A stretch of 41,128 nt of DNA, taken from positions 1 to 41,128 of IMG/VR virus record IMGVR_UViG_3300046169_000038; one strand, 5' to 3'. Positions 3,066 to 27,285 of this stretch are shown piece by piece. The translations under genes and the position numbers were made by a program. Source of the DNA: a virus. Numbering within the stretch: position 1 is the first letter of the stretch; each line of letters begins with the position of its first letter. A model generated the notes under the pieces. That model saw nothing but the letters and a program-made list of their open reading frames with translations. It did no database searches and had not been told where the DNA came from.

Positions 3066-3611
3066 TTATACTTCACTATCAAGGAGTTGAATATTAAATC
3101 CGAAATCACTGTCTGGACTTATATTAGACGGTGTCGGTGTTATATTTAGTCTTTCAACAAATAAGTCACTATCTTGTAATCCCTCTTCTTTTAAGAAGAA
3201 GTTTGCATCAACAGTACGTACAATAGGCGCATCTTTATCTGGCCCATAGAACGACATCTTCATCTCAAAGTCTAGTGTGTAGATGATAGTACGTCTTTGT
3301 CCTACAGATCCTTCGAAGTCATCTGAGAAGGTAACACCATTCAATATGATAGGTGTATCTTCTATAATCTCAGCGTAATCCGTAAACGGTTTTACTGATA
3401 GAGTATATTGTGGGTTAAAATATGGTATAACCTGTTCCACGACTTGCAACGCATCATCTTGACTCTTGGCATATACGTTCAACTGGAAACCAATTGTGTA
3501 TGGAACAGATGTATAAAATCTTTTCTTTTTGGTATTGTCTGTGGCAGATCGAGTAAACTTATTTACCTTGGGTAGTTGTCTCTCTGGGTCGTATGCAATA
3601 TTTGTAATCTC
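3066..3611 (-). CDS. 15: gp15 tail sheath stabiliser, C-terminal part (frame +1)
   Basis: Continuation of gp15. This frame opens directly at the break near 3612 and continues EITNIAYDPERQLPKVNKF, then NVYAKSQDDALQVVEQ, IPYFNPQYTLSVKPF, GVTFSDDFEGSVGQRR, and ends SPDSDFGFNIQLLDSEV. These are the signature segments of marine T4-like gp15. The first ATG in this frame is only at 3482, so a caller that needs an ATG would lose about 43 residues. It is not an independent gene: it has no ribosome site at the break, and the two pieces join exactly into one family-length protein of about 260 residues. Confidence 0.9.
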   Translation of the reverse strand, partial: EITNIAYDPERQLPKVNKFTRSATDNTKKKRFYTSVPYTIGFQLNVYAKSQDDALQVVEQVIPYFNPQYTLSVKPFTDYAEIIEDTPIILNGVTFSDDFEGSVGQRRTIIYTLDFEMKMSFYGPDKDAPIVRTVDANFFLKEEGLQDSDLFVERLNITPTPSNISPDSDFGFNIQLLDSEV

Positions 3612-3846
3612 GAAATGACATACGTGGGAGTTTCATTGCAACTCTACGTTCTGCCTCCTCCCCTTTCGCCATCTCCGCAAGACGATCTAGGAATGATCTA
3701 CGAGGTGCGTATGATAAAGGAACCTTGACCTGAGATATTGTTGCACCCGAAGAGTTCTGTCTCAACACATGTATGTTGTTAAACAAAGAACCAAATACCG
3801 ATACGGCAGTCCTTACTCGCTTGTTATAAAACCAAGTACCGAACAT
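3559..3846 (-). CDS. 15: gp15 tail sheath stabiliser and completion protein, N-terminal part
   Basis: gp15 forms the hexameric ring that caps the finished tail and joins it to the neck. This piece starts MFGTWFYNKRVRTAVSVFGS and continues through LRQNSSGATISQVKVPLSY and AMKLPRMSF, as in cyanophage gp15. At codon TTT CGA G (C at 3612) the frame is lost: frame 0 continues as an unrelated arginine-rich tail and stops at 3559. Skipping the C of CGA gives MSF-EITNIAYDPE, the expected text. The start codon at 3846 adjoins the gp14 stop, which agrees with the gp14-gp15 order of T4. Confidence 0.92.
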   Translation of the reverse strand: MFGTWFYNKRVRTAVSVFGSLFNNIHVLRQNSSGATISQVKVPLSYAPRRSFLDRLAEMAKGEEAERRVAMKLPRMSFRDYKYCIRPRETTTQGK

Positions 3847-6398
3847 TACGTCATGTCTCCGAATGGGTTAGACTCCGAGAAGTCTAAGAAGTCTGCTTCA
3901 AAATCATCAAACACTTTACTTTGCGAAGTGGTTTGTATTTGTTGTTGCATATCCTCTACCGATAGTGGCGACCATTTAGCACCTGATGTACTACCAACTA
4001 AAATATTAGATGTGCTGAATTCCTTGTATGTACCGTCCGTACTACCGACATGAGCAAGTTGAAGTATACGATCACTGTCTGACCAACGAGTTACTTCACC
4101 CTTTAAAGTGTAACTTGGATTTACTTGGGTTACGATTTCACCAATCAAGAAGTCTGAAGAGTCTAGATTCCCTTCTGTTGTTATTAGAGGTGATTCACTG
4201 TATCCAAATCCAGAATCAGCGATTACAACCGAGGTAACAACGCCATCCGTTTCGGTGGTGGTTAACGTTGCGGTTTTTCCTTCGAAATGTTCTAGCAAAA
4301 CTGTATTACTATTACTATCAAAACTTGAAACAGGCGTATTGATATCTACAGGAAGAACCGATATCTTACCACGCATATTGACGTGATGAGTACATTGATA
4401 GTAGTAATTGCCCTTTTCAGTCGGGGTGAATCTAGTAGCATAATATGACGGATTAGTGCCATCACTGTCATAGTAAAAACCGCCATCACTATCTGCTGGT
4501 GGGGGACTAGCAAGAATGGTTCCATCAGAATCTTCTACTCTTATTGGATGACCACCATGTTCTATGTACGATATTTTAACATTACGTAAACTAACTTCAG
4601 TATTTCTTGTTAGTACATACATGAGTAAAGAACTGTATGTATCAATCTTCTTACGAGGAAGTGGTACACTATAATTTGTTTCGCTATCTCCTGCAATCCG
4701 AATTTCCGTAGTAGAAAATGATGGATTGACATCTGGATAAGATTGATATTCGAATACGAAATTTATTTCAGCTGAATCTAATTCTTGACCACTGGGTATA
4801 TATGCATCAAAACTTAATCGAGAATTATCTTTAAGTTCTATAGGATATTGATATGAAAAACTATTATTAAAACCGCCCCAATCTTCAGCGTCATTAGGCC
4901 AAATATACTTGTCTTCCGCACCCGCCAATCTTGCACCACCAAAACTACCACCAAAGTAAAAGTCCAATGGTTGGGGTACGGTTTGACTTATATAATTTTT
5001 AAGACACAATGTGTCTCCGAGGTACATTGTTAAATTTGGATCTTCACCAATGATCGCACCTTTTCTGTCACTATCGTTTGTGTCAAATATATAATTAGAT
5101 CTATTATCATTGGCATCAAGAACAGCCAAATTTATATCTTTGTATGTTACTACGTTGCCCGTTATCATTTCTGTTTTTGATTGAGTAGTTACATGTAATT
5201 CATCTACTTTACCGTCAAATAGACTATAAACATCTCCTGTGCCATAAAGTCTCGGTGCTTGGGAACCCAAATTTATTTTATTGTTACCAATAAAATTCAG
5301 TTCTCGACCGATATCGCTATCAAAAACTTTAACGCCATTAAGATACACATACAGTTGACTAATAGTGCCAGACCCATTACTGTCCGCACCCAATATCAAA
5401 TGTGACCACTCTGAGGCAAGAATCGGATCATTATCGAGTGTTCTTACAACAGAATCTTGACCTAGAGTATCACGGAAAGAAAACTGTATTTTACCTTGGT
5501 CATTCACACCAAAAGACATGATGTTGTCGGAAATACTAGTATTCCCACCCAATGTAATTAATGCTTGTCGGCCGGCACCCGGCAGATTGTTTGGATAGAA
5601 AAATGCTTCTACAGTACCCTTATCAGAAGTGAACAAATAATTTTCACTATATGATCTGACCTTATCTGAGTGGAATGACTGGTTGCCGAACTTGGATAAC
5701 CCAAACGGCGCAGACAAGTTTATGACAGGGGCAGAGTCATAATTACGACCACCATTAATTAAAGTTACACTCTTCAGTTTACCAGTAAATGGATCGAGGT
5801 TATCATCGTCTATAGTGATAGAAACGGTATTATCTTCGGGCGGGTGCATCGTGACCGCATATTGATAAGCACCTTCATACTCAATCGCATCGATTTCTGC
5901 AATGTTAGTATCAAAGTCTTCGTCACTATACTCAAACAATTCACACTGTAATCGAAATGTTGGTAAGTGACTTAATTGATAGAACGGTGTCTCGGTCTCT
6001 ACCTTCAATACTTCGAACATAGAGTTCGACATTGGTAGATAGATGATATCGCCTTCACGTGGACGGAACCCAACCTCTGCTAGGTTGTCGCCAATTAGTT
6101 TCTTCCAACGTCTACGTGCAAATACGAATGTGGCCTGATCACGCAACTCGATACCGAATTTAGTGAATAGGTCACCCTCTCCATCAAACCCTTCAGTATT
6201 CTCGATGTAAGTCTCAATCTTATATGCATCAGAAAAACGTGAAGGTATATCGTCAGCAAAGATCTTATCCTTGTTAACAATCTCACGTGGTAGATAGTAT
6301 ACGTCCTCACCATAGAACTTCAGAGACTCGATTACGAGATCTTCATAAAGATGTTGTTCGGATCGTACCTTTTTGCTTATATACGGATTTGTTGCCAT
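3846..6398 (-). CDS. 14: neck protein gp14, enlarged by lectin-like and cupredoxin-like insertions
   Basis: The ends are gp14: residues 1-165 (YISKKVRSEQHLYEDLVIES, FGIELRDQATFVFARRRW, REGDIIYLPMSNSMFEVLKV) and the tail FLDFSESNPFGD. In T4, gp14 has 256 residues; this one has 850. The extra length holds three recognisable segments. A LamG/concanavalin-like beta-sandwich covers about 238-405 (GTVEAFFYPNNL, WSHLILGADS, KVDELHV). A cupredoxin-like frame runs from about 450 to 685, with GGHP (His617) and YYYQCTHHVNM (Cys669, His672, Met675) matching a type 1 copper site. Between its first strand and His617 lies a carbohydrate-binding-like beta-rich insert (about 480-612). The insert calls are inference from motifs. 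No frame break is seen. The flanks are gp13 upstream and gp15 downstream. Confidence 0.88.
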   Translation of the reverse strand: MATNPYISKKVRSEQHLYEDLVIESLKFYGEDVYYLPREIVNKDKIFADDIPSRFSDAYKIETYIENTEGFDGEGDLFTKFGIELRDQATFVFARRRWKKLIGDNLAEVGFRPREGDIIYLPMSNSMFEVLKVETETPFYQLSHLPTFRLQCELFEYSDEDFDTNIAEIDAIEYEGAYQYAVTMHPPEDNTVSITIDDDNLDPFTGKLKSVTLINGGRNYDSAPVINLSAPFGLSKFGNQSFHSDKVRSYSENYLFTSDKGTVEAFFYPNNLPGAGRQALITLGGNTSISDNIMSFGVNDQGKIQFSFRDTLGQDSVVRTLDNDPILASEWSHLILGADSNGSGTISQLYVYLNGVKVFDSDIGRELNFIGNNKINLGSQAPRLYGTGDVYSLFDGKVDELHVTTQSKTEMITGNVVTYKDINLAVLDANDNRSNYIFDTNDSDRKGAIIGEDPNLTMYLGDTLCLKNYISQTVPQPLDFYFGGSFGGARLAGAEDKYIWPNDAEDWGGFNNSFSYQYPIELKDNSRLSFDAYIPSGQELDSAEINFVFEYQSYPDVNPSFSTTEIRIAGDSETNYSVPLPRKKIDTYSSLLMYVLTRNTEVSLRNVKISYIEHGGHPIRVEDSDGTILASPPPADSDGGFYYDSDGTNPSYYATRFTPTEKGNYYYQCTHHVNMRGKISVLPVDINTPVSSFDSNSNTVLLEHFEGKTATLTTTETDGVVTSVVIADSGFGYSESPLITTEGNLDSSDFLIGEIVTQVNPSYTLKGEVTRWSDSDRILQLAHVGSTDGTYKEFSTSNILVGSTSGAKWSPLSVEDMQQQIQTTSQSKVFDDFEADFLDFSESNPFGDMT

Positions 6399-6399
6399 A

Positions 6400-6852
6400 T
6401 TACCCTGCGAAGAAGATCGGGCCTACATCTTCCTCTTCCCTAAACCTAGTACGAATCTGTTCAAGTTCATTGTTAGCGTCCTCAAATATAGAACGACCAC
6501 TGATCTGAACACCCCCAGGCAAGGTCATGCCATCAAACTTTAATAGGTTGGTTCCCCATTGCCTTTTGACAATTGCGGTTAGATACTCTTTAAGAAACTT
6601 GTGATTGAACAGAGAGTTGTAATCACCACCAGCAGATTCTTCAGATGGAGTTCTGATACCATAGACTTCGATAACAATGTGATCGCCTACAGTGAGTTTC
6701 TCGGAACTCAAGTAGTAGTATAAACGATTACCTTGTCGGTCAAATGTAGTTTCGGGCGTACCGCTTAGTTTCATATCAAGTAATGATAGATGTTGTTGCA
6801 TTTGTTCGTAGTATGCAATGTCACCAGCATAGTTGTTTAAGGTCGGTGACAT
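6400..6852 (-). CDS. 13: gp13 neck protein, C-terminal part (frame +1)
   Basis: Carries the second half of gp13: NNYAGDIAYYEQMQQHLSLL, then GNRLYYYLSSEKLTVGDHIV, and a C-terminal helix-rich part with FLKEYLTAIVKRQWGTNLLK. These follow the pattern of T4-like gp13 after its central 'YQ-LND' segment. The ATG at 6852 lies inside the overlap with the N-terminal piece and is probably not used. Joined at the break (about 6833-6843) the two pieces give a protein of about 255 residues, close to the usual gp13 length. Confidence 0.85.
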   Translation of the reverse strand: MSPTLNNYAGDIAYYEQMQQHLSLLDMKLSGTPETTFDRQGNRLYYYLSSEKLTVGDHIVIEVYGIRTPSEESAGGDYNSLFNHKFLKEYLTAIVKRQWGTNLLKFDGMTLPGGVQISGRSIFEDANNELEQIRTRFREEEDVGPIFFAG

Positions 6853-7168
6853 CGTTCAACATCATCTGATACTTGATATCAAAGAAATTTGTTGTTTGTG
6901 AAACAGTGTTGATCGGGAACATACGAACAACAGTGGAGATGGATGCATCTCCTAGATCGATATATCCGTTGTCAATAATGTCTTGAGTCATTTCAAAAGA
7001 CATATAGTGCCTACGTGAACCGTCAGGATGATTTTCACGGAACCACTGAAGTGCCTCGTCTACACGATCTTCTAGTTGTTCGTCATCGACATTTATTTCA
7101 AGAACAGGCGCACCCAAACTACGTAAGCAATAATCTATTAGTTCCTGTCTAGTGTTAGGACTTGCCAT
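6821..7168 (-). CDS. 13: gp13 neck protein, N-terminal part
   Basis: gp13 joins the completed head to the tail in the neck ring. This piece opens NTRQELIDYCLRSLGAPVLE and continues NVDDEQLEDRVDEALQWF, DIIDNGYIDL and VVRMFPINTVSQTTNFFDI, the canonical gp13 N-terminus. After KYQMMLNDVTDL the frame runs into a short alien tail and a stop at 6821. In the +1 frame the sequence resumes as NNYAGDIAYY. The break lies at GACCTTAAAC on the coding strand. The start at 7168 follows a short A/T-rich spacer after the fibre-like gene upstream. Confidence 0.88.
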   Translation of the reverse strand: MASPNTRQELIDYCLRSLGAPVLEINVDDEQLEDRVDEALQWFRENHPDGSRRHYMSFEMTQDIIDNGYIDLGDASISTVVRMFPINTVSQTTNFFDIKYQMMLNDVTDLKQLCW

Positions 7169-7187: not shown

Positions 7188-8750
7188 TTAGTATGTTCCA
7201 CCGTCAAGAGCGGTAACTCTAACTCCGCCAGAGGTAAGAGTAAACTGATTGGTTGATCCACCATCTGATTCAGCAAGACCGTCAAACTTCGCCACACCTA
7301 TCGCACTTGTAGTCGCAATATCAACATTAACCGTAAGTGTGTTTGCAGCGTCATCGTAAACAGAACCAATACTTTGACCATCTGTAAATAAAGTATTAAC
7401 ACGATCATCAATTGTTTCGGATAGATCATGAATCGTTGCTTCAACGGTTTTGTTGAATACCCATCTGTCGTTCGATCCATCATATGTAAGAGATGGTGGA
7501 CTACTGAATGAAGATGAACCAATAATGATACCAGCACCATTAGCTGCTGTTCCATCATCTGCACTGTCAGCGAGGGTAAGAACAAGATCATTAATTGATA
7601 CTTCAGTACTATTTATTGTTGTTGTAGTACCTTGAACAGTTAAATCACCTAGGATAACAACTTCACCCGAATCACCAACAGGGCCTGGATTCAAGAAAAG
7701 AGTTGATTCACCAGCGTCAGTTGTACTGATTGTGTTACCATCGATTCGAATATTGTCAACATCAACTTGGGTTAAACCAGCTAGTGCAGTAGAAGAACCA
7801 CCAAGTGAGATTGCGGTAGTACCAACTGTTAATGAACTGTTTGCAAGTTTAGTGTTACTAACACCACCGTCTTTAACACGGAGTACATCTGAGTTTGTCT
7901 CAATAGTAGCATCATCTACACCTACAGCGAGAGATACAGAAGCACCAAGAGCTACACTGCCACCGCCACTCAGACCATCGCCCGCAGTAACGGTTACTGA
8001 ACTATTTGCGAGCTTGCCGTTTGCGATAGAACCAGCAAGTTGATCATTGGTGATCGTACCACTCAGAGATGAAGTTGGGTAACTAGTCGCATTTGTTAAG
8101 TCAAATGCTGGTTGAGCAGAAGTCCCACCTAACGCAACAGATACACCACCAAATGATACTGAAGTGTTGTCCATGTTGAACGTTACTGTATCATCAGTAA
8201 CAACAGAAGTCAAACCAGTACCACCAGCAAAGGTTAGTGCGTTACCTGTAGTATAAGCATCAGTGTTAGAGGCATCATCGGTTAAAGTAATCGTTGACGA
8301 AACTCCACTGAGTTGAGTATCAACATATCCTTTAGTTGCCGCATCAGAGTCAGCAGTTGGTGTTACAACATTCGATATCTTAGAACCTTCAACAGAGACC
8401 ACACCAGATCCATGTGGACTTAATAAAAGATTGCCGTTATTATCTGTTGTGCTGATGGTGTTGCCGTCAATAGTAATGTTATCAACGATCCATTGATTCA
8501 CTTTTGAATTAGCGTCTAGAATAACCGCTTTTGAACCAGCAATAGTGCCAGCAGTTGAACCTAGTAAGTCAGTATAGTATTTACCACCGATGGGGTCAAT
8601 GTTTGCGGCTTCTCCGTTTACCTCCGCACCCCAACCGATGAATAACTTACCGCCTGTACCACCACTCCAACTATAAGCCAGTTCACCACTACCTAAAGCT
8701 GTTGGAGCATTTGATGACCCTGACCGTTTGATTTTAATTTCAGTTGCCAC
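7188..8750 (-). CDS. fibre-like virion structural protein
   Basis: A 520-residue protein opening MATEIKIKRSGSSNAPTAL, a start shared with the S74 fibre at 13085-14839 (there SSTIKIKRSNTSGNAP). Such starts are typical of marine T4-like fibre and structural proteins. The N-terminal part has GELAYSWSGGTGGKLFIGWG and KYYTDLLGSTAGTIAG. The rest is Gly/Ser/Thr/Val-rich beta repeats, including two units with ITIDGNTISTTD or IRIDGNTISTTD, and segments of the SNTKLANSSLTV type. There is no enzyme motif or S74 domain. It sits between two small structural genes and gp13, where T4 has its fibre and whisker genes. The attachment point and receptor are unknown. Confidence 0.75.
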   Translation of the reverse strand: MATEIKIKRSGSSNAPTALGSGELAYSWSGGTGGKLFIGWGAEVNGEAANIDPIGGKYYTDLLGSTAGTIAGSKAVILDANSKVNQWIVDNITIDGNTISTTDNNGNLLLSPHGSGVVSVEGSKISNVVTPTADSDAATKGYVDTQLSGVSSTITLTDDASNTDAYTTGNALTFAGGTGLTSVVTDDTVTFNMDNTSVSFGGVSVALGGTSAQPAFDLTNATSYPTSSLSGTITNDQLAGSIANGKLANSSVTVTAGDGLSGGGSVALGASVSLAVGVDDATIETNSDVLRVKDGGVSNTKLANSSLTVGTTAISLGGSSTALAGLTQVDVDNIRIDGNTISTTDAGESTLFLNPGPVGDSGEVVILGDLTVQGTTTTINSTEVSINDLVLTLADSADDGTAANGAGIIIGSSSFSSPPSLTYDGSNDRWVFNKTVEATIHDLSETIDDRVNTLFTDGQSIGSVYDDAANTLTVNVDIATTSAIGVAKFDGLAESDGGSTNQFTLTSGGVRVTALDGGTY

Positions 8751-9424: not shown

Positions 9425-10141
9425 TTATTCTGAACTAATTTCATCAATTATTTCTTCTCTGAACCCTTTACTCACTTCGGATTTGTCAAAACAAAAAGAG
9501 ACGGTATGTCTCCAACACTTAGATGCAGCTGAATGATAGAAAATATTTTCTGGTTCGTCATAACTACCGAAGTATCCAGCTTTGCATTGCCATCCTGGCT
9601 TGTCATACATATAAACAATTTCTTGTTTTTCTATGTCCCAATATTTAAAATAACCATCACCAGTTTCACTATAAGTAAAAACAAAATTGTATGCAGCTGC
9701 ATTTGCATTATTGTGCCATGCAATATAACCGTTTGGTGGATAAACTGCCGATAACGCATTATTTCTACAACCCAAGAAATTCAATAGGTCACCATGAAAA
9801 TTACCTACTTTCGTAATAAAATCTGATCGCCATTTGATGTCATCTGGATCACTTGACATGTTTACGGTATCAAAAAATTCGTGGTCTTTTTGGTTAGTAC
9901 GCATCTCATAAGCATACAAAGAATCAGGAAACCCAGAATGGGATCTCCCTTCACTTATAAGTTGTCTCAAATATTCATCAGATATCCATTTCTCAGGATT
10001 ATCTTTTTGATGCCCCTTACAAGCTAGATGCATATTTTTCTTGAACAGTTCTTCATTATCTGTACGAAAAGAAATGTGTCTATTTAAAATTTCCAGTAGT
10101 TCTTTATTCTTAACTGGAATATCTCTCATTCTTTCTGTCAT
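9425..10141 (-). CDS. putative 2-oxoglutarate/Fe(II) oxygenase-like protein
   Basis: A 238-residue protein. Residues about 140-225 resemble a double-stranded beta-helix oxygenase: YPPNGYIAWHNNANAAAY gives a first His, YSETGDGYFKYWD follows, and YHSAASKCWRHTVSF gives a distal His with Arg eight residues later. The usual HxD is HxN here, so iron binding is uncertain. Related 'GWHTN' proteins occur in marine T4-like phages. The start ATG overlaps the stop of the glycosyltransferase-like gene (ATGA), so the two are coupled. A joint role in modifying fibres or host surface molecules is inference. It could also be a non-catalytic cupin. Confidence 0.5.
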   Translation of the reverse strand: MTERMRDIPVKNKELLEILNRHISFRTDNEELFKKNMHLACKGHQKDNPEKWISDEYLRQLISEGRSHSGFPDSLYAYEMRTNQKDHEFFDTVNMSSDPDDIKWRSDFITKVGNFHGDLLNFLGCRNNALSAVYPPNGYIAWHNNANAAAYNFVFTYSETGDGYFKYWDIEKQEIVYMYDKPGWQCKAGYFGSYDEPENIFYHSAASKCWRHTVSFCFDKSEVSKGFREEIIDEISSE

Positions 10142-10869
10142 GAGTAGTGGGAATCCTTATTTAGTCCACAAGAGTAATGTCTAAAGATTACTGGGTTTTC
10201 GGGGTAAGTTGTTTCTGCGTGCCATGCATTATAATAATTCCATCTCATATCATCATCAAATATACCAATCTTTAAATCTTTATATTTTTCTTCTTGGTTC
10301 GTCAACCACCAAAGTGAAAACTGATCCCAGTTTCGAAGACTTTTTGGGTAACCTTCGGGCCACCATTCCCTATCCATTTGTTTTCTGGTTAGTTCCCACC
10401 AATCTTCTACGAACTCACGGACGATAGGTTTAGACATATCATACAAACACACACCGCCACAAAGTGTAAACGACTGTCTTCCCATGTCGGGTGTGTCGAA
10501 ATTATATTCAGCATATATGTAATCACGTTCTTTTGTTAGAGCCGAAAACACAAGGTCGTGGTCTTTCATTTCGTCCCAAATTTTAATCACATCTTCATGT
10601 TCGCATTCCATGTCAGCATCAACATACATTGTAATGTCATAAGGAGATTGAGCCATGCCCCAGAGTTTGGCACGGTAATGGTCATTACAATGTATTACTT
10701 TATCGGTCAATTCTTCTGCACGTTCGTCTACCATCCACTCTTCGCACACTAAGGTTATGTTGGCGTCTGGGTAGTAATCTAGGATAGAGTCTATTAGATT
10801 TATAGCGTAACAGTAGAAACTTCTTTTACGAGAAGCTACTACAACAAAACCCTTACTTTTCTCCGTCAT
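10138..10869 (-). CDS. glycosyltransferase-like protein (GT-A fold)
   Basis: About 243 residues from the ATG at 10869, chosen because GAGGA at 10878-10882 lies 8 bases upstream; an in-frame ATG at 10890 is possible. The protein begins KSKGFVVVASRKRSFYCYA. It has ITMYVDADMECEHEDV, in which DAD fits the metal- and nucleotide-sugar-binding DxD motif, then LCGGVCLYDM and NWDQFSLWWL. This is the layout of small GT-A glycosyltransferases found in marine T4-like phages. Donor and acceptor cannot be told. Its position among fibre genes suggests a target on the virion or the cell surface. Confidence 0.68.
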   Translation of the reverse strand: MTEKSKGFVVVASRKRSFYCYAINLIDSILDYYPDANITLVCEEWMVDERAEELTDKVIHCNDHYRAKLWGMAQSPYDITMYVDADMECEHEDVIKIWDEMKDHDLVFSALTKERDYIYAEYNFDTPDMGRQSFTLCGGVCLYDMSKPIVREFVEDWWELTRKQMDREWWPEGYPKSLRNWDQFSLWWLTNQEEKYKDLKIGIFDDDMRWNYYNAWHAETTYPENPVIFRHYSCGLNKDSHYS

Positions 10870-11328
10870 CAGAGGATTCCTCATTAGCAATATGTTCTTG
10901 TAAGATCATCATTGCATAAAGATCGACTTCGATCTTGCTTTTAAGCACGTCTGAGTTTTGCTTTTAGTTTTCTGTTTTTACAGTTTTTGATTTCTTCGAC
11001 TTCAAATGCTTCCATTTTATATGAGAAAAGTTTTTCCATTTTTCGAGCTTTCTCGTGCTCGATCTCACGTAATTTTTTTTCTTCTTTTTCAGACGCTTTT
11101 CGTCTATGTCTTTCTTCGGTATTTTTGGTGATTTGATCTTCACCTAAAACTTCAATAAGTTCTTCAAACTCCGCACTGGGACTACCATTCTTATCGATTT
11201 TTTTTAACCGCATGACCTGTTCAAGTTTTCTATCTTCATCGTCAATGATTTGCAAAATGCAAGTCACGTCATCTTTGGTTTCTGGTGCTTCCCAAAAAAG
11301 CATTATCTAACCATTTTCTACTACTCAT
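10853..11328 (-). CDS. small charged coiled-coil protein, frame broken twice
   Basis: A highly charged Lys/Glu-rich helical protein of about 155 residues once the breaks are bridged. The best start is the ATG at 11328, with AGGAG at 11335-11339: it reads MSSRKWLDNAF, then a run of six T forces the frame (five T would continue FWEAPETKDDVTCILQIID). The main frame covers 10941-11303. It stops at GCT TAA, while the +1 frame continues LKSKIEVDLYAMMILQEHIA to NEESSDDGEK and a stop at 10853, overlapping the glycosyltransferase-like start by 17 bases. Function is unknown. The Asp/Glu/Arg/Lys-rich middle (RHRRKASEKEEKKLREIEHE) predicts a long helix. Confidence 0.6.
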
Positions 11329-20993: not shown

Positions 20994-23900
20994 TCAGTCT
21001 GCAAGTGCAATTGCCCTCAATGATTTAACTACTGGAACCTTGGCAGATGATGTACTACCAAAAGTTATCTTCAATTGGAATCTATCAAATGGATCTAATT
21101 CACCTGTCTCACCACCTATCAAATACTGATACTCACGGAAAGTATTTTTATTTGTATCTGATGGCATTTGAGTTACTGGTTCAGCATATTCCCAAGAAAT
21201 ATCTTTTATGTTCACATCTTTCGGACAAGTTCTGTAGTACAAACCGATACCTGTGTCTGGTGGTCTGTTAACACTCATTTTAACTGATAAACCACGAGAA
21301 GTTTCCGTTAGACTGATAGGGATACATACGTGTTTGGAAGCAACAGTACCTCCAGCCACTTCTTCTTCGTCTAATCCTCCTGTGACTCTATATTCGTCAG
21401 CACTAGATGTAGACAGTTCAAACTCATCTTCAATATTCTCATCGGTATTGTCGATAATATTATGTGTCAGTTTAAGATCTGCCGATTCCATATCAATTAC
21501 TGGACTTACACGTGTATCGGACGTAGTCATGACTACATGAGTGGTCATGGATTTATTCCGATCATTAGTATCCGTTATTTCGAAAGAACCCTCAGTGTCT
21601 TCTTCATAACTGTTAAATACAGCGTAATCTTTATCCAAAGTTACGTTAGTTTTATTTCGCATCAAAGTGAAATTGTCATCTATGGCAAATCGATCATTAA
21701 TACCCAAACCACTTAATGGTGTATTACGTGTCATTTTTGCAGAGAACGTGTAGTTAGTTGTTTCTGGTTGTAGAACATCTAAATCTGGTCTAATTAATTC
21801 AAACGGTACGTGTTGCATCAATCTTAATTCACCGCCTCCAGTTCTTCCAGACGATGTTGCCGTTCCGTTAGTTAAGATTTTGATACTGGTAGCATCTGCG
21901 GACACAACGGTCTGTAGTCCACTCATTTGAACACCTTGGATGCCATTGTACGATGCGGAATTGTTCAATCCAAATATTCTTGTTCGGTCTCCCGCTCTTA
22001 GACCATGTCCTTCACAGAATATCGTCACATATGATTTTCCACTTGCATTGAATATGTTAGTATTATCAGCAATCAGGTTACCATCAGAATCAGTCGTAAC
22101 GTCTCCTTCAATTTCTGTCATTATTGGATTTGCGACAAGAACTGTTGGTCTGACCTTTCGGTTCTTCAGAACAACTTTACCTTTGTTTTCAAAGTCTGCA
22201 CGATACATCATATATGCAAGATCTTGTTGACCACGTGGTTCCCAAACATCTGTGTTCTGAGATACAAATAACGAACCTAGAGTCGGTTGTTTGTGGATAC
22301 GTTGAGTCGTAGAACCTAATAAGAAGTCCTGTACTTCGGAGATATACATCTTATATTCCATAGACTTAGATCTAATGATAATCGCATAGTTAGCACCATT
22401 GCCTTCTAAGAAGATGGGTTCATCAAATACAAAGTCAGTACCTTGTGCAAGCATGTCACCGATGTTAATATTTCCACTTATAGTTTTAACATCAGAAGCG
22501 TCCAAATGAACAAGTGAGCCTGGAACTCTTCGAGTACGATCAGGGAAACCAGCAGGTGCTTCGGTAATCGCAATACTAACACCATGTTGAACATCGTTAG
22601 TGCCAGGTTTTGATTCAAAGAACAATCTTAAACGAGTTAAGAAGATACCATTTGGATCAAGTACCTCAAATGATTGTGCAGTCGGATCTTCGTCCTTATA
22701 CTTAGCGCCTTTTGGTTGAATAACAACTTTACCATCACCAGTACCATATGTAGGTATTGAAGACTTTTTATTCTGATAAACGTGTCCTGCTAAACCAGTA
22801 GTACCTTGAGCATAATCGTATGTTACGTTAGTTCCGACATGTTCTGTTCTGTTACCTATAGTTACAGAATTAGTTTCTGTTGGCCCATATACCGTAGATT
22901 TAGTAACCTCTGTTTTTTCATCAGTTTGTGTATCGAATGTGACAACTTCATCTGTACTAACTGTATGTGTTGTGTACCTATCATTATCTACTTTAGTGGT
23001 TGCATTACCAGAAACTTCTAATACACGTGTATTCGTAATAGTATACTCACCACTCAGACTCTCGATCACACCTGAAGCGGTGTAGAACTGAGAAGCATAA
23101 GATAATGCATTTTTCTTGTCTGGAACACTAATATCAAATAATTCAAATATCGCTGTTCCAGTAGGGAATCGCATTGGAGGTTCAACTATATTAGGAACCT
23201 CGAACTCACCCTCAAGAACACCATTGCTATTCGATATTAAGTCACCAAAACCTTCGGAGTGTTGAGTTGATGGAGGTAGTTCTACTTCTGGAATCATTCT
23301 CGCATTATCACTATCTTCATAATTTGGATCTGCAATTGTCGATGACTTATAGAAAGTCTTTGTCTTACAGAAACGACTCACATCAGTATCATTAAAGAAT
23401 GGGAAGTACTGAGTATTTGGTCTTAGTCCAGTCGCCTTGAACGATACTTTACGAGAACGCATCCAAGGGATATGGATTATCTGCAATACTCGTTCATCAA
23501 CTATTTCTGTGAGTACACTTTCAGCAGTAATTCTGTTAACCGAAGTAGTTGTTTCGGTGGCAGTGTTGTACTCTTGTGTCGTTAAGTGTTGATTCTCAGT
23601 CGTTATCGTATCTGTTTTAGCAAGAGACGTGTTAGTGGTTGTTTCTTTAATACCCACATTTTTAGAGTAAGTTGTTAGTTCAGTACTAACATCTGTGTAG
23701 TATTCTTTGATACGTGCGGTGGACGTTCTAGGAGCATAACCATTGTAGACATTTGCCCTACCCTTCTTACCTTTAGAATGGTTATACCAATTTAAGTGAG
23801 CTTTACCCTTAGAGACACTTCTCATTAGGAATGAATCACCATCATTTAGATAAACTACATGTGGTTCTGGGTTTCGAACCCAACTAGAAACTGTGTAAGG

Positions 23901-24044
23901 GTTTCCAGATGATGGTGTACCGCTAGAAGCTCTCCAATAGAAGAGATCAAAGTGTTCGTGGTGACGACTTCTACCACATGAATGAAAATGGAATTTACCG
24001 TTTCGTTTCGTGTGACCTGGCCGGAACAGTGAATACCCACTCAT
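20994..24044 (-). CDS. giant DUF4815-like structural protein, C-terminal part (frame +1)
   Basis: About 1,000 residues continuing the gene at 23995-27285. It resumes GHTKRNGKFHFHSCGRSRHH, then HFDLFYWRASSGTP. Long Thr/Ser-rich beta segments follow (TTTNTSLAKTDTITTENQHL), then IIHIPWMRSRKVSFKATGLR and a region with LRLFFESKPGTNDVQHGVSI, typical of giant marine T4-like structural proteins. The end has RFQLKITFGSTSSAKVPVVK. The ATG at 24044 lies inside the overlap and has no family support. The two parts are best read as one gene of about 6.3 kb encoding about 2,100 residues. It is probably a baseplate-attached fibre or wedge component. Confidence 0.72.
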   Translation of the reverse strand: MSGYSLFRPGHTKRNGKFHFHSCGRSRHHEHFDLFYWRASSGTPSSGNPYTVSSWVRNPEPHVVYLNDGDSFLMRSVSKGKAHLNWYNHSKGKKGRANVYNGYAPRTSTARIKEYYTDVSTELTTYSKNVGIKETTTNTSLAKTDTITTENQHLTTQEYNTATETTTSVNRITAESVLTEIVDERVLQIIHIPWMRSRKVSFKATGLRPNTQYFPFFNDTDVSRFCKTKTFYKSSTIADPNYEDSDNARMIPEVELPPSTQHSEGFGDLISNSNGVLEGEFEVPNIVEPPMRFPTGTAIFELFDISVPDKKNALSYASQFYTASGVIESLSGEYTITNTRVLEVSGNATTKVDNDRYTTHTVSTDEVVTFDTQTDEKTEVTKSTVYGPTETNSVTIGNRTEHVGTNVTYDYAQGTTGLAGHVYQNKKSSIPTYGTGDGKVVIQPKGAKYKDEDPTAQSFEVLDPNGIFLTRLRLFFESKPGTNDVQHGVSIAITEAPAGFPDRTRRVPGSLVHLDASDVKTISGNINIGDMLAQGTDFVFDEPIFLEGNGANYAIIIRSKSMEYKMYISEVQDFLLGSTTQRIHKQPTLGSLFVSQNTDVWEPRGQQDLAYMMYRADFENKGKVVLKNRKVRPTVLVANPIMTEIEGDVTTDSDGNLIADNTNIFNASGKSYVTIFCEGHGLRAGDRTRIFGLNNSASYNGIQGVQMSGLQTVVSADATSIKILTNGTATSSGRTGGGELRLMQHVPFELIRPDLDVLQPETTNYTFSAKMTRNTPLSGLGINDRFAIDDNFTLMRNKTNVTLDKDYAVFNSYEEDTEGSFEITDTNDRNKSMTTHVVMTTSDTRVSPVIDMESADLKLTHNIIDNTDENIEDEFELSTSSADEYRVTGGLDEEEVAGGTVASKHVCIPISLTETSRGLSVKMSVNRPPDTGIGLYYRTCPKDVNIKDISWEYAEPVTQMPSDTNKNTFREYQYLIGGETGELDPFDRFQLKITFGSTSSAKVPVVKSLRAIALAD

Positions 24045-27000
24045 CGCCTACTTTAGGCCCCCAGTTGTGATGACCAGTCTTCAGGAACGACCAAGCTTTG
24101 TTCTCTCTTTTATGTACATAAGGTACAGTTTTACTCTTAGTAACAACTTTCGAGGCACCTACTACATCATTTTTCTCTTGACCAAGGATCACTTGACCAG
24201 TGTGGAGTACCTGAGAACTGGACGTAGAACCAGTCTTAACCCAGTCGCCTGGTTCTGTAGTCACTCTCTGACCAACAAATGAGGTGTTCTCACCTTCTAG
24301 TGTAGTCTTAGATGTTTGTTGTACTAGAGGATCTGAAGTCATACCTACTTGTAGGTCATTAGGTGCTATACCACCCCAACTGTTTTCCCAGTCGTTCCAA
24401 AGTAAAGCGGCATCAGTATTAAACTCTGTACCAGCATCAATCACAAGTGGTGCTTGGTGATCTAAATTCTTCCAAGTATCTTTGGACGGTGATAATACTA
24501 AATCACCATGAGTCTTCTCAACGTGGAATGGGTTAACATTGATAGTCTTAGATGCCATAGTTTGAGACAAATAAGGAGTCTCGGTATGGTTAAGATAGAT
24601 GTTATCGCCTTTCTTAACGGTATCTGTTGATTCGGCACTGTCATATTTTAAGAAAATCGACTTACATTTGTATGATGGTCTGATGAGTCCCTTAGATGGA
24701 TCCATTGACGCTCTGTGTTCAATACTCTTAGTATCCGTAAACTTCTGATTCTTGAAGTTATCTACAAAGAAACCTGTGTGTATTCTTTCTTCACCAGTAT
24801 CGTCAAATATTCTTTCGTTAGCTGCGTTAGACTCTAATAGGGAAAGCGTTGTTGCTTCCTCTAGTTTATCGATTCGTTTTTCGATCTTGTTGATGTCTTC
24901 CATCGTGTAACCACGTCTTGGAATAATAGTAGTCTCAAGATCTTTAACATGCATTGTGTTCGCATTCATATGAATCTTGTAGAGATCAATACAGTCCACT
25001 GGAGTCGATGGATACTTAGGTTGCATTGAAGATACACCCTGAATCAAACGTAACTCGCCACCCTTCGACAACACTAGTTTGTCAAGACGAGGCATGAAAT
25101 ACTCACCGTCACAGGTTATGACTGAGTTTGACTGTGGTAGACCCAATACGTCAGAAGCACTAAACGCATCAGTAGATGGATTGATAGATGGACGTAAGTC
25201 AACCACATCACGTAAATTTACTAGTCTATTATTCGCAGTTCTATGTACTGGTATATCTACATAAGGAAGACTATATGAACTAACGTCAAAGAAGTCCCCT
25301 GCTGTGTGTTCAAAGAAATCAAAAGAAACGTGGATCGGAACAACCGAAGAACTATCCCTTAATCCACCACCCCTGAAGAGTAGTTTAGCTTCATCGTAAT
25401 GAGTATCTCTTTGACCATTATCAATACCAAACACACCTAGTACATTTCTACCGTTTGCGCTATCTTCTCTAACAGAATTAACTCTATAAAGGTCGATTTT
25501 TCCTAACTCAATTAACTCTTGACCTACACCGTCAGAATCTATAGCATAAGTGGCGGTATGTGTTTTCAGTGTTTTATTCTTTCTAACTGGAGCACTGAGT
25601 TGTTCGAAATACATTAAGTCGTAAGTTGTACCGTCAACCAGACCCGAAATCTCGGCATCATTTCCATTGAAAGTAACAACCGCATCAGAAACCTCATCAG
25701 AATCCGCAGAAGAAACGATCCATGCACTACCGTTAGTTAGACTGGTGTCAGAACTACTGTTACTGAATGAGTGCGTAGTTGCTCCTGAAAGACTAAAACT
25801 TTTCTTTTTAGCTACAGTGTATACGTGATCACTAAACGTCTTGGGTCTAGGTAAGGGACTATCGAAGATAACACCTTTCTTTTCACTTTGATAAAGTTTA
25901 GTACTGTTGTTAGTTCGATATATGTTTAGGTAGTTGGTAGTCGGAGCTCCAGAATTAGTCACAACAGACTGAATATCACGGATACTCTTAGTTTCGTTCG
26001 TTATCTGTAGATCAAAAATATGTAGTTTTTTAGTACCAGAAACAGTACCGCTAATGTTTATACCACGAACACGACATGTACCAATTTTGTTACCACCGCC
26101 ATTGGCAGCATCGTGAATGTCTATTTTTTCACATGTCGAGAAGTTGGGCATACTACCCTTACCGTCAGTATATAATAAAAAGTTTGCATAGTCAACTGTT
26201 ACGGTGTCATTATTTCTAGAAATAGTATCGGTCGGTTTATCCGAGATGATAGTCGTAGCGGCATCTTTATTAATACGATAACCCCTAACGTATGCGGTGC
26301 CAGGCGATACTTTTAATTTGAACGTTGTGTCGTCATTGGGTTCAAATGAAGCACGGAAATAACGTTTAACGTAATCACCAGATTCTTCATACGTTCTGAT
26401 CGCCATTTCATCTCTAATAGATTTAAATCCAGAACTAGTCGTTGTTTTAGAAACAATTTGACCACCCACAACTTCAACGATCGGAATGAAATCATCTTCA
26501 TTTAAAACTACTCTCGCATCAGCAAGAGTGAGTTGGATACGATATCTGTCAGCACCAGGCGATGTTAGATTTGGAGTCTCTCCCTGATTATCATACAATG
26601 ATACGTCATCATCGACATTTACAATATCTTGCGTAACTTTAAAACCGAAACGACTCGATTGATTAGTTTCGTATTTACGGAAAATTAGTTTTTGTGGAGG
26701 ACAATAAACAACGTGACCTTGTATGAAGAAATGACCTTCGTCAACAGATATAGCAGAACCTAGACCGACAGCAGGATTAGTAGAAGTGTTTTCAGACTGA
26801 ACACTAAATGTGTAAGTGTTTCCGTCAGAAGCACCAATCAAAGATTCTCCGGCTTGAGCCCTAGTACCAGTCTCTCCACCTACCTGATCTTTGGTATACT
26901 CAACAATTAGTGTATCTGGATCATCTCCTTCAGCAGCAATTGCATTGACGACCAGAAATTCTTTGTTGCTTCCAGTAGATCCGATCTCAAAAGTTAGACC

Positions 27001-27285
27001 TTCTAATACACTTGGGTCTGATGGAAACGGTGTTGCAGAACTTATTTTTATAAATTCTAATTCATTATCTACTCGGAAGGAGCCTGGGGATATTGATGCA
27101 CCTTCAGTAAATAGGTTTCCAGCAAGTTGAGAAAATTGTTCTTGTATCGCTGTTTGTAACTGAGTTAACTCTCTTGCTTGTAGTGCTTTACCACTATTGA
27201 ATAGAATCTTATGATAATTTTTAGTTCTATCGTAATCATCTTTATAGGTGGTAGCAAAAGTATTTTCTGTATAAGTCGTTGGCAT
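23995..27285 (-). CDS. giant DUF4815-like structural protein, N-terminal part
   Basis: A 1,096-residue frame with the marine phage N-terminus: TYKDDYDRTKNYHKILFNSG, KALQARELTQLQTAIQEQFS, NLFTEGASISPGSFRV. This matches what I know as DUF4815 (name from memory). A long beta-rich body follows, with FFIQGHVVYCPPQKLIFRKY, TAYVRGYRINKDAAT and PSTPVDCIDLYKIHMNANTM, and a short helix (DINKIEKRIDKLEEATTLSL). It ends VGDEWVFTVPA-RSHETKR at a stop. Skipping one base at CCGGCCAGG (GGCC at 24019-24022) gives VFTVPAGHTKRNGKFHF and joins the downstream frame. It sits directly after gp8, where T4 has gp9 to gp11. Confidence 0.78.
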   Translation of the reverse strand: MPTTYTENTFATTYKDDYDRTKNYHKILFNSGKALQARELTQLQTAIQEQFSQLAGNLFTEGASISPGSFRVDNELEFIKISSATPFPSDPSVLEGLTFEIGSTGSNKEFLVVNAIAAEGDDPDTLIVEYTKDQVGGETGTRAQAGESLIGASDGNTYTFSVQSENTSTNPAVGLGSAISVDEGHFFIQGHVVYCPPQKLIFRKYETNQSSRFGFKVTQDIVNVDDDVSLYDNQGETPNLTSPGADRYRIQLTLADARVVLNEDDFIPIVEVVGGQIVSKTTTSSGFKSIRDEMAIRTYEESGDYVKRYFRASFEPNDDTTFKLKVSPGTAYVRGYRINKDAATTIISDKPTDTISRNNDTVTVDYANFLLYTDGKGSMPNFSTCEKIDIHDAANGGGNKIGTCRVRGINISGTVSGTKKLHIFDLQITNETKSIRDIQSVVTNSGAPTTNYLNIYRTNNSTKLYQSEKKGVIFDSPLPRPKTFSDHVYTVAKKKSFSLSGATTHSFSNSSSDTSLTNGSAWIVSSADSDEVSDAVVTFNGNDAEISGLVDGTTYDLMYFEQLSAPVRKNKTLKTHTATYAIDSDGVGQELIELGKIDLYRVNSVREDSANGRNVLGVFGIDNGQRDTHYDEAKLLFRGGGLRDSSSVVPIHVSFDFFEHTAGDFFDVSSYSLPYVDIPVHRTANNRLVNLRDVVDLRPSINPSTDAFSASDVLGLPQSNSVITCDGEYFMPRLDKLVLSKGGELRLIQGVSSMQPKYPSTPVDCIDLYKIHMNANTMHVKDLETTIIPRRGYTMEDINKIEKRIDKLEEATTLSLLESNAANERIFDDTGEERIHTGFFVDNFKNQKFTDTKSIEHRASMDPSKGLIRPSYKCKSIFLKYDSAESTDTVKKGDNIYLNHTETPYLSQTMASKTINVNPFHVEKTHGDLVLSPSKDTWKNLDHQAPLVIDAGTEFNTDAALLWNDWENSWGGIAPNDLQVGMTSDPLVQQTSKTTLEGENTSFVGQRVTTEPGDWVKTGSTSSSQVLHTGQVILGQEKNDVVGASKVVTKSKTVPYVHKRENKAWSFLKTGHHNWGPKVGDEWVFTVPARSHETKR

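Follow-up and report, generated by a model that had tools for sequence, protein, structure and literature searches.

Nested LamG, cupredoxin and CBM-like domains in an inserted arm of the gp14 neck protein of an uncultured marine T4-like phage

The gp14 neck protein described here carries a large inserted arm in which a LamG domain is followed by a cupredoxin that is itself interrupted by a third, CBM-like module. The protein is encoded in a virus record of 41,128 bases, referred to below as the window, which contains a block of T4-like structural genes. From sequence comparison, we consider it about an even chance (probability roughly 0.5) that the arm acts as a neck adhesin for glycans, in which the cupredoxin would form a copper-capable scaffold. 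The features of the protein are listed below in window coordinates, from the N-terminus to the C-terminus.

3846–6398, minus strand: gp14 / head closure Hc2 neck protein, 850 aa, with a large internal insert (PF11649, PHROG 460, T4 gp14 PDB 9mkb/9lu4)
5877–6398, minus strand: gp14 core, residues 1–174 (94–97% identity among closest relatives)
4164–5843, minus strand: inserted arm, about residues 186–745 (from alignments; missing from compact gp14, e.g. L041, 297 aa)
5691–5831, minus strand: GSGYxxAP-type β repeat on the N side of LamG, residues ~190–236 (sequence and alignment)
5181–5639, minus strand: LamG / concanavalin-like domain, residues 254–406 (PF13385, AF2, Foldseek)
4992–5147, minus strand: first cupredoxin piece, residues ~418–470 (assigned by a profile of uninterrupted relatives)
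4566–4958, minus strand: CBM-like module within the cupredoxin, residues 481–611 (homology to marine bacterial tandem repeats)
4329–4559, minus strand: second cupredoxin piece, with all putative ligands, residues about 614–690 (profile positions 52–118)
4548–4550, minus strand: His617, putative first copper ligand (GGHP), in a region that aligns with amicyanin/plastocyanin
4392–4394, minus strand: Cys669, putative ligand
4383–4385, minus strand: His672, putative ligand
4374–4376, minus strand: Met675, putative axial ligand (CxxHxxM, amicyanin-type loop)
4155–4304, minus strand: second GSGYxxxP-type repeat, after the cupredoxin, residues ~699–748 (alignment; AF2)
3846–4154, minus strand: gp14 C-terminal core, residues 749–850 (alignment; 75–80% identity in L002–L004)

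The identity of the protein as gp14 is secure, since it is supported by both homology and gene order. Pfam, PHROG and PDB are concordant on residues 1 to about 174: the N-terminal region matches PF11649 with E = 4e-34 (118.7 bits, against a cutoff of 25) and PHROG 460 with E = 6e-95, and in the PDB sequence comparison the T4 gp14 structures match the 850-aa protein with E = 3e-27. The gene order 13-14-15-16-17 is present, represented by the PHROG assignments Ad2, Hc2, tail sheath stabilizer, and terminase small and large subunits. Both ends of the protein align with compact relatives of ~290 aa, confirming the original prediction, made from the DNA sequence, that the gp14 ends are standard. 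One relative, L001, encodes an identical protein (100% over 850 aa).

In the window, gp13 (6400–7168) and gp15 (3066–3846) each occupy two frames owing to single-base changes relative to the sister contig L001, in which gp13 is unbroken; the frame breaks are probably sequencing or assembly errors. Two overlapping open reading frames (1016 and 1096 aa) at 20994–27285 match consecutive parts of PHROG 358, which suggests that an indel has disrupted the frame of a single, very large structural protein. Two others (238 and 250 aa), at 9425–10890 amid the structural genes, had no PHROG match.

The insert lies in the C-terminal arm of gp14 and, measured against compact relatives such as L041, comprises ~560 residues. 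A large insert had been anticipated, but its size had been underestimated at about 500 residues. The 80 gp14 relatives collected from IMG/VR fall into length classes of ~290–300, ~570–590, 678–695 and 829–872 aa, and the aligned classes nest within each other: compact; with LamG; with LamG and a whole cupredoxin; and with LamG and a cupredoxin split by the third module. Between the compact and the LamG class, a LamG domain is gained between two GSGYxxAP repeats. The ~680-aa class has an additional domain of ~100 residues between LamG and the second GSGY repeat, and in the ~850-aa class a further ~145 residues are gained inside this ~100-residue domain. The members of the split-cupredoxin class are the window protein, L002 and L003.

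The LamG domain matches PF13385 with E = 2e-13 (51.2 bits, cutoff 27.6). Its AF2 pLDDT is mostly ~90, and Foldseek matches it to pentraxin, the neurexin LNS domain and CBM40, so that both family and fold bear out the LamG/concanavalin domain first placed at residues 238–405, which Pfam delimits at 254–406. The second GSGY repeat is modelled with pLDDT >90 at residues 701–740. In the cultured cyanophage S-BM1, GSGY-type repeats are found at the equivalent gp14 site, without the remaining arm. A search of 50,697 phage records with the LamG-bearing stretch gave no match.

A cupredoxin profile was made from three uninterrupted relatives of the ~680-aa class. When this profile was compared to the PDB, all 34 of the sequences found at E ≤ 0.1 were cupredoxins (best E = 8e-5), and hhalign aligned the ligand region with query sequences of amicyanin (E = 1.8e-5) and plastocyanin (E = 2.9e-5). 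The same profile gave 23.5 bits against window residues 418–470 (profile positions 12–50) and 31.5 bits against residues 612–694 (profile positions 52–118), compared to 8.7 and 5.0 bits, respectively, for the best of 200 shuffles. The stretch between the two pieces did not score against the profile, and a genome search with the profile recovered the same two pieces. Because the pieces abut at neighbouring profile positions, the split is confirmed at the level of sequence, and it falls between the first strands and the first His ligand, as had been proposed. By these comparisons, residues ~418–470 and 612–694 make up a cupredoxin with a complete type 1 copper ligand set, and the four ligands originally named (H617, C669, H672 and M675) are correct in both numbering and residue.

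The cupredoxin call for the window protein depends on its relatives, since the protein alone matches Pfam Copper-bind with E = 0.51. The whole-cupredoxin relatives reached 20.7 bits, just below the cutoff of 21.2, and the sole NCBIfam match of the region was a weak one to TIGR02657 (amicyanin). Two AF2 models were made, the second from the only alignment that held the whole cupredoxins in register; other mixes with bacterial modules misplaced these. For both models, the Foldseek top 50 consisted of LamG-type or LamG-containing proteins, with no cupredoxin or CBM-insert match among them, and the cupredoxin region had middling AF2 confidence. The assignment thus rests on the sequence profiles.

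The module that splits the cupredoxin (residues 481–611) had no family match in Pfam, PHROG or NCBIfam and no credible match in the PDB. A scan of bacterial genomes recovered homologues in metagenome-assembled genomes of Glaciecola, Porticoccaceae, Halieaceae and Flavobacteriaceae; complete copies have domain E-values no worse than 1e-44. The bacterial copies are mostly in tandem and occur in proteins with GH16 (L112), GH81 (L117), RTX repeats (L118) or T9SS sorting tails (L114, L116). Among 150 genomes of the family to which the Glaciecola record belongs, six contain the module, on a GH16 protein in every case (the Glaciecola record included), and the Porticoccaceae genome has a copy on a GH5+CBM6 protein. 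An alignment of 18 sequences of the module contains 12 invariant positions. On this sequence evidence, residues 481–611 are the same domain as the repeats of the marine bacterial GH16, GH81 and GH5 proteins. Searches for viral copies beyond the gp14 clade, using the cupredoxin plus insert, the insert alignment and degenerate DNA patterns, found none. On the bacterial side, an unnamed and often tandem domain of 128 positions recurs on marine GH16, GH81 and GH5 exoenzymes (L112, L117, L142–L149).

We refer to the module as “CBM-like” rather than as a CBM member, because it had no match to a known CBM family in Pfam; judged from its sequence relationships, it is probably a new CBM-like family. 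Its enzyme partners imply that the bacterial module would bind carbohydrate, and the domain shared with GH16/GH81-type exoenzymes lends support to the early description of a CBM-like insert in the cupredoxin. GH16 and GH81 include laminarinases, and β-1,3-glucan is therefore a reasonable guess at the ligand.

In T4, gp14 forms a hexameric ring beneath the gp13 dodecamer, its residues 178–256 contact gp15, and the whiskers dock at gp13 residues 190–239 (PMC12270204). By analogy with T4, the window gp14 would form a hexameric ring in the neck. The arm might replace the T4 whiskers, touching the retracted long tail fibres or sensing the environment instead of binding glycans. Besides the neck position of the arm by homology, this explanation could draw on the lack of the fibritin-binding domain III in gp13: judged by length and alignment, no counterpart of the T4 whisker dock is present in gp13 of 12 relatives (252–266 aa), and no Fibritin_C (PF07921) was detected in nine relatives, several of which are contigs of unknown completeness, with a positive T4 control. 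However, the relatives with compact gp14 also have neither the gp13 dock nor fibritin, which makes a one-for-one replacement unlikely, and lectin and CBM-type domains are better suited to glycan binding. We consider a whisker substitute of this kind unlikely. The initial comparison of the insert with a whisker or collar is apt only in a loose sense: in T4 the whiskers are attached to gp13, but the insert is in the gp15-facing arm of gp14, and it is dispensed with in compact relatives. A 520-aa protein (7188–8750; PHROG 15769) is encoded immediately upstream of gp13 in the window, at the place of the T4 whisker gene wac. The photosystem II reaction-centre family is missing from five related long contigs and from Phage C48C1 and present in S-BM1 and S-SM2, and its absence hints at heterotrophic hosts.

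The core and arm of gp14 have diverged at very different rates. Between the window protein and L002–L004, the core retains 94–97% identity, compared to 28–50% for most arm segments and 45–72% for the second GSGY repeat. A nearly fixed core combined with fast arm divergence is typical of exposed, quickly changing surface modules; recombination would look alike. In the gp14-core tree, the split-cupredoxin forms group together (support 80/63) and the whole-cupredoxin L004 lies beside them (clade support 96/90), while LamG and compact forms alternate, which implies repeated gain or loss of the LamG arm. This alternation, the rapid divergence of the arm and the simpler repeats that occupy its position in a cultured cyanophage could all reflect largely neutral shuffling of domains, at a surface site that tolerates insertions and has not been selected for binding. 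Yet the copper ligands, the LamG fold and the CBM-like core residues have been kept at 25–50% identity, and the large open frames are intact in independent contigs (L001–L003), which makes the neutral explanation quite improbable.

All four copper ligands are retained in each of the 19 module copies that cover the ligand region, among them copies in additional proteins of marine phages (virion and S8-peptidase proteins), such as a subtilisin-like protein of S-CAM4. (A cupredoxin module with the full ligand set is fused to subtilisin-like, S8 peptidase marine phage proteins in L104:791-2836, L099 and L105.) This complete retention of His/Cys/His/Met, with the variation in loop length seen in genuine type 1 copper proteins, would also be expected if the cupredoxin were more than a scaffold and served as a redox or copper-acquiring device, handling copper at the cell surface. 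Such a role is doubtful: the cupredoxin has no attached redox partner or enzyme, the copper carried by six copies per particle would be a trace at most, and the retained ligands may reflect folding stability. A chimeric assembly or fusion artefact, which the single-base differences from L001 that break the adjacent gp13 and gp15 might bring to mind, is rejected, since the identical 850-aa protein occurs in L001 and independent contigs encode 829- and 872-aa homologues of the same architecture, with 57 and 55% best-segment identity.

The reading we favour is a glycan-binding neck adhesin. LamG framed by two GSGY repeats would be the basic state of the arm; the cupredoxin would then have been placed behind LamG, and the CBM-like module, of the type found in GH16/GH81 proteins, would have been inserted last, into the cupredoxin. 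If gp14 is a hexameric ring as in T4, the head-tail joint would be ringed by six arms of ~560 residues. Their LamG and CBM-like modules may bind weakly to surface or dissolved polysaccharide, with β-glucan as the best first guess for the target, and such binding could lengthen the residence time of virions near their hosts. The cupredoxin would act as a rigid, copper-capable scaffold on which the CBM-like head would stand clear of the neck. Beyond the sequence relationships themselves, the hexamer and the neck location (from T4), the order of insertion, surface exposure, glycan binding, copper occupancy and a benefit to the phage are inferred. The original idea that the insert adorns the neck and binds glycans or metal is plausible. 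The functional reading gains from the third module being shared with GH16/GH81-type exoenzymes and from the missing whisker dock on gp13. Any benefit of the arm would be conditional, because related phages with compact gp14 dispense with it.

T4 gp14 (PDB 9mkb, 9lu4; PMC12270204) has the homologous core (residues 4–173) and the same placement in the gp13-gp14-gp15 gene order, but has 256 residues and no LamG, cupredoxin or CBM-like insert. The neck fibres of T4 are separate fibritin trimers on gp13, unlike the gp14-borne arm of the window. Kyanoviridae gp14 (S-BM1, S-SM2 and Phage C48C1, in which gp14 is compact) resembles the window protein in its core and C-terminus, but is without the LamG/cupredoxin/CBM arm. 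Amicyanin and plastocyanin have the GDT strand, first His and Cys-His-Met loop in common with the window cupredoxin, which differs in being split by a ~145-residue module and embedded in a virion protein. In the marine bacterial GH16/GH81 exoenzymes (L112, L117, L142–L146), the same module is found as C-terminal tandem modules, whereas the window has one copy, within a phage cupredoxin and with no glycosidase.

Some phage virion proteins have Ig-like or lectin add-ons, for which weak glycan binding has been proposed in the bacteriophage adherence to mucus model. These are likewise modular β-sandwich additions on structural proteins, and the window gp14 is in this sense another T4-type structural protein decorated with modules, an arrangement of a kind already known; its arm differs from them in site (the neck protein gp14), domain types and nesting. 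In the literature searched, which was largely open-access, we found no description of phage neck or virion proteins with a cupredoxin or LamG domain, and did not find the combination of LamG, a split cupredoxin and a sugar-enzyme-type module in a neck ring protein described there.

The series of insertion states among the relatives is a natural one in which to study how structural phage proteins acquire nested domains. The unnamed CBM-like family, found both on GH16/GH81-type proteins and in a virion, is the most testable part, since its sugar target can be tested directly. As a tentative picture, which we hold to be possible but less than probable, uncultured marine T4-like phages would have built a glycan-binding, copper-loaded collar into the head-tail joint by Russian-doll insertion, using a new carbohydrate-binding family common to virions and marine glucan degraders. 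The arm would put a decoration of the receptor or glycan type on the neck, which is not usually associated with adhesion, in phages represented by metagenomes alone.
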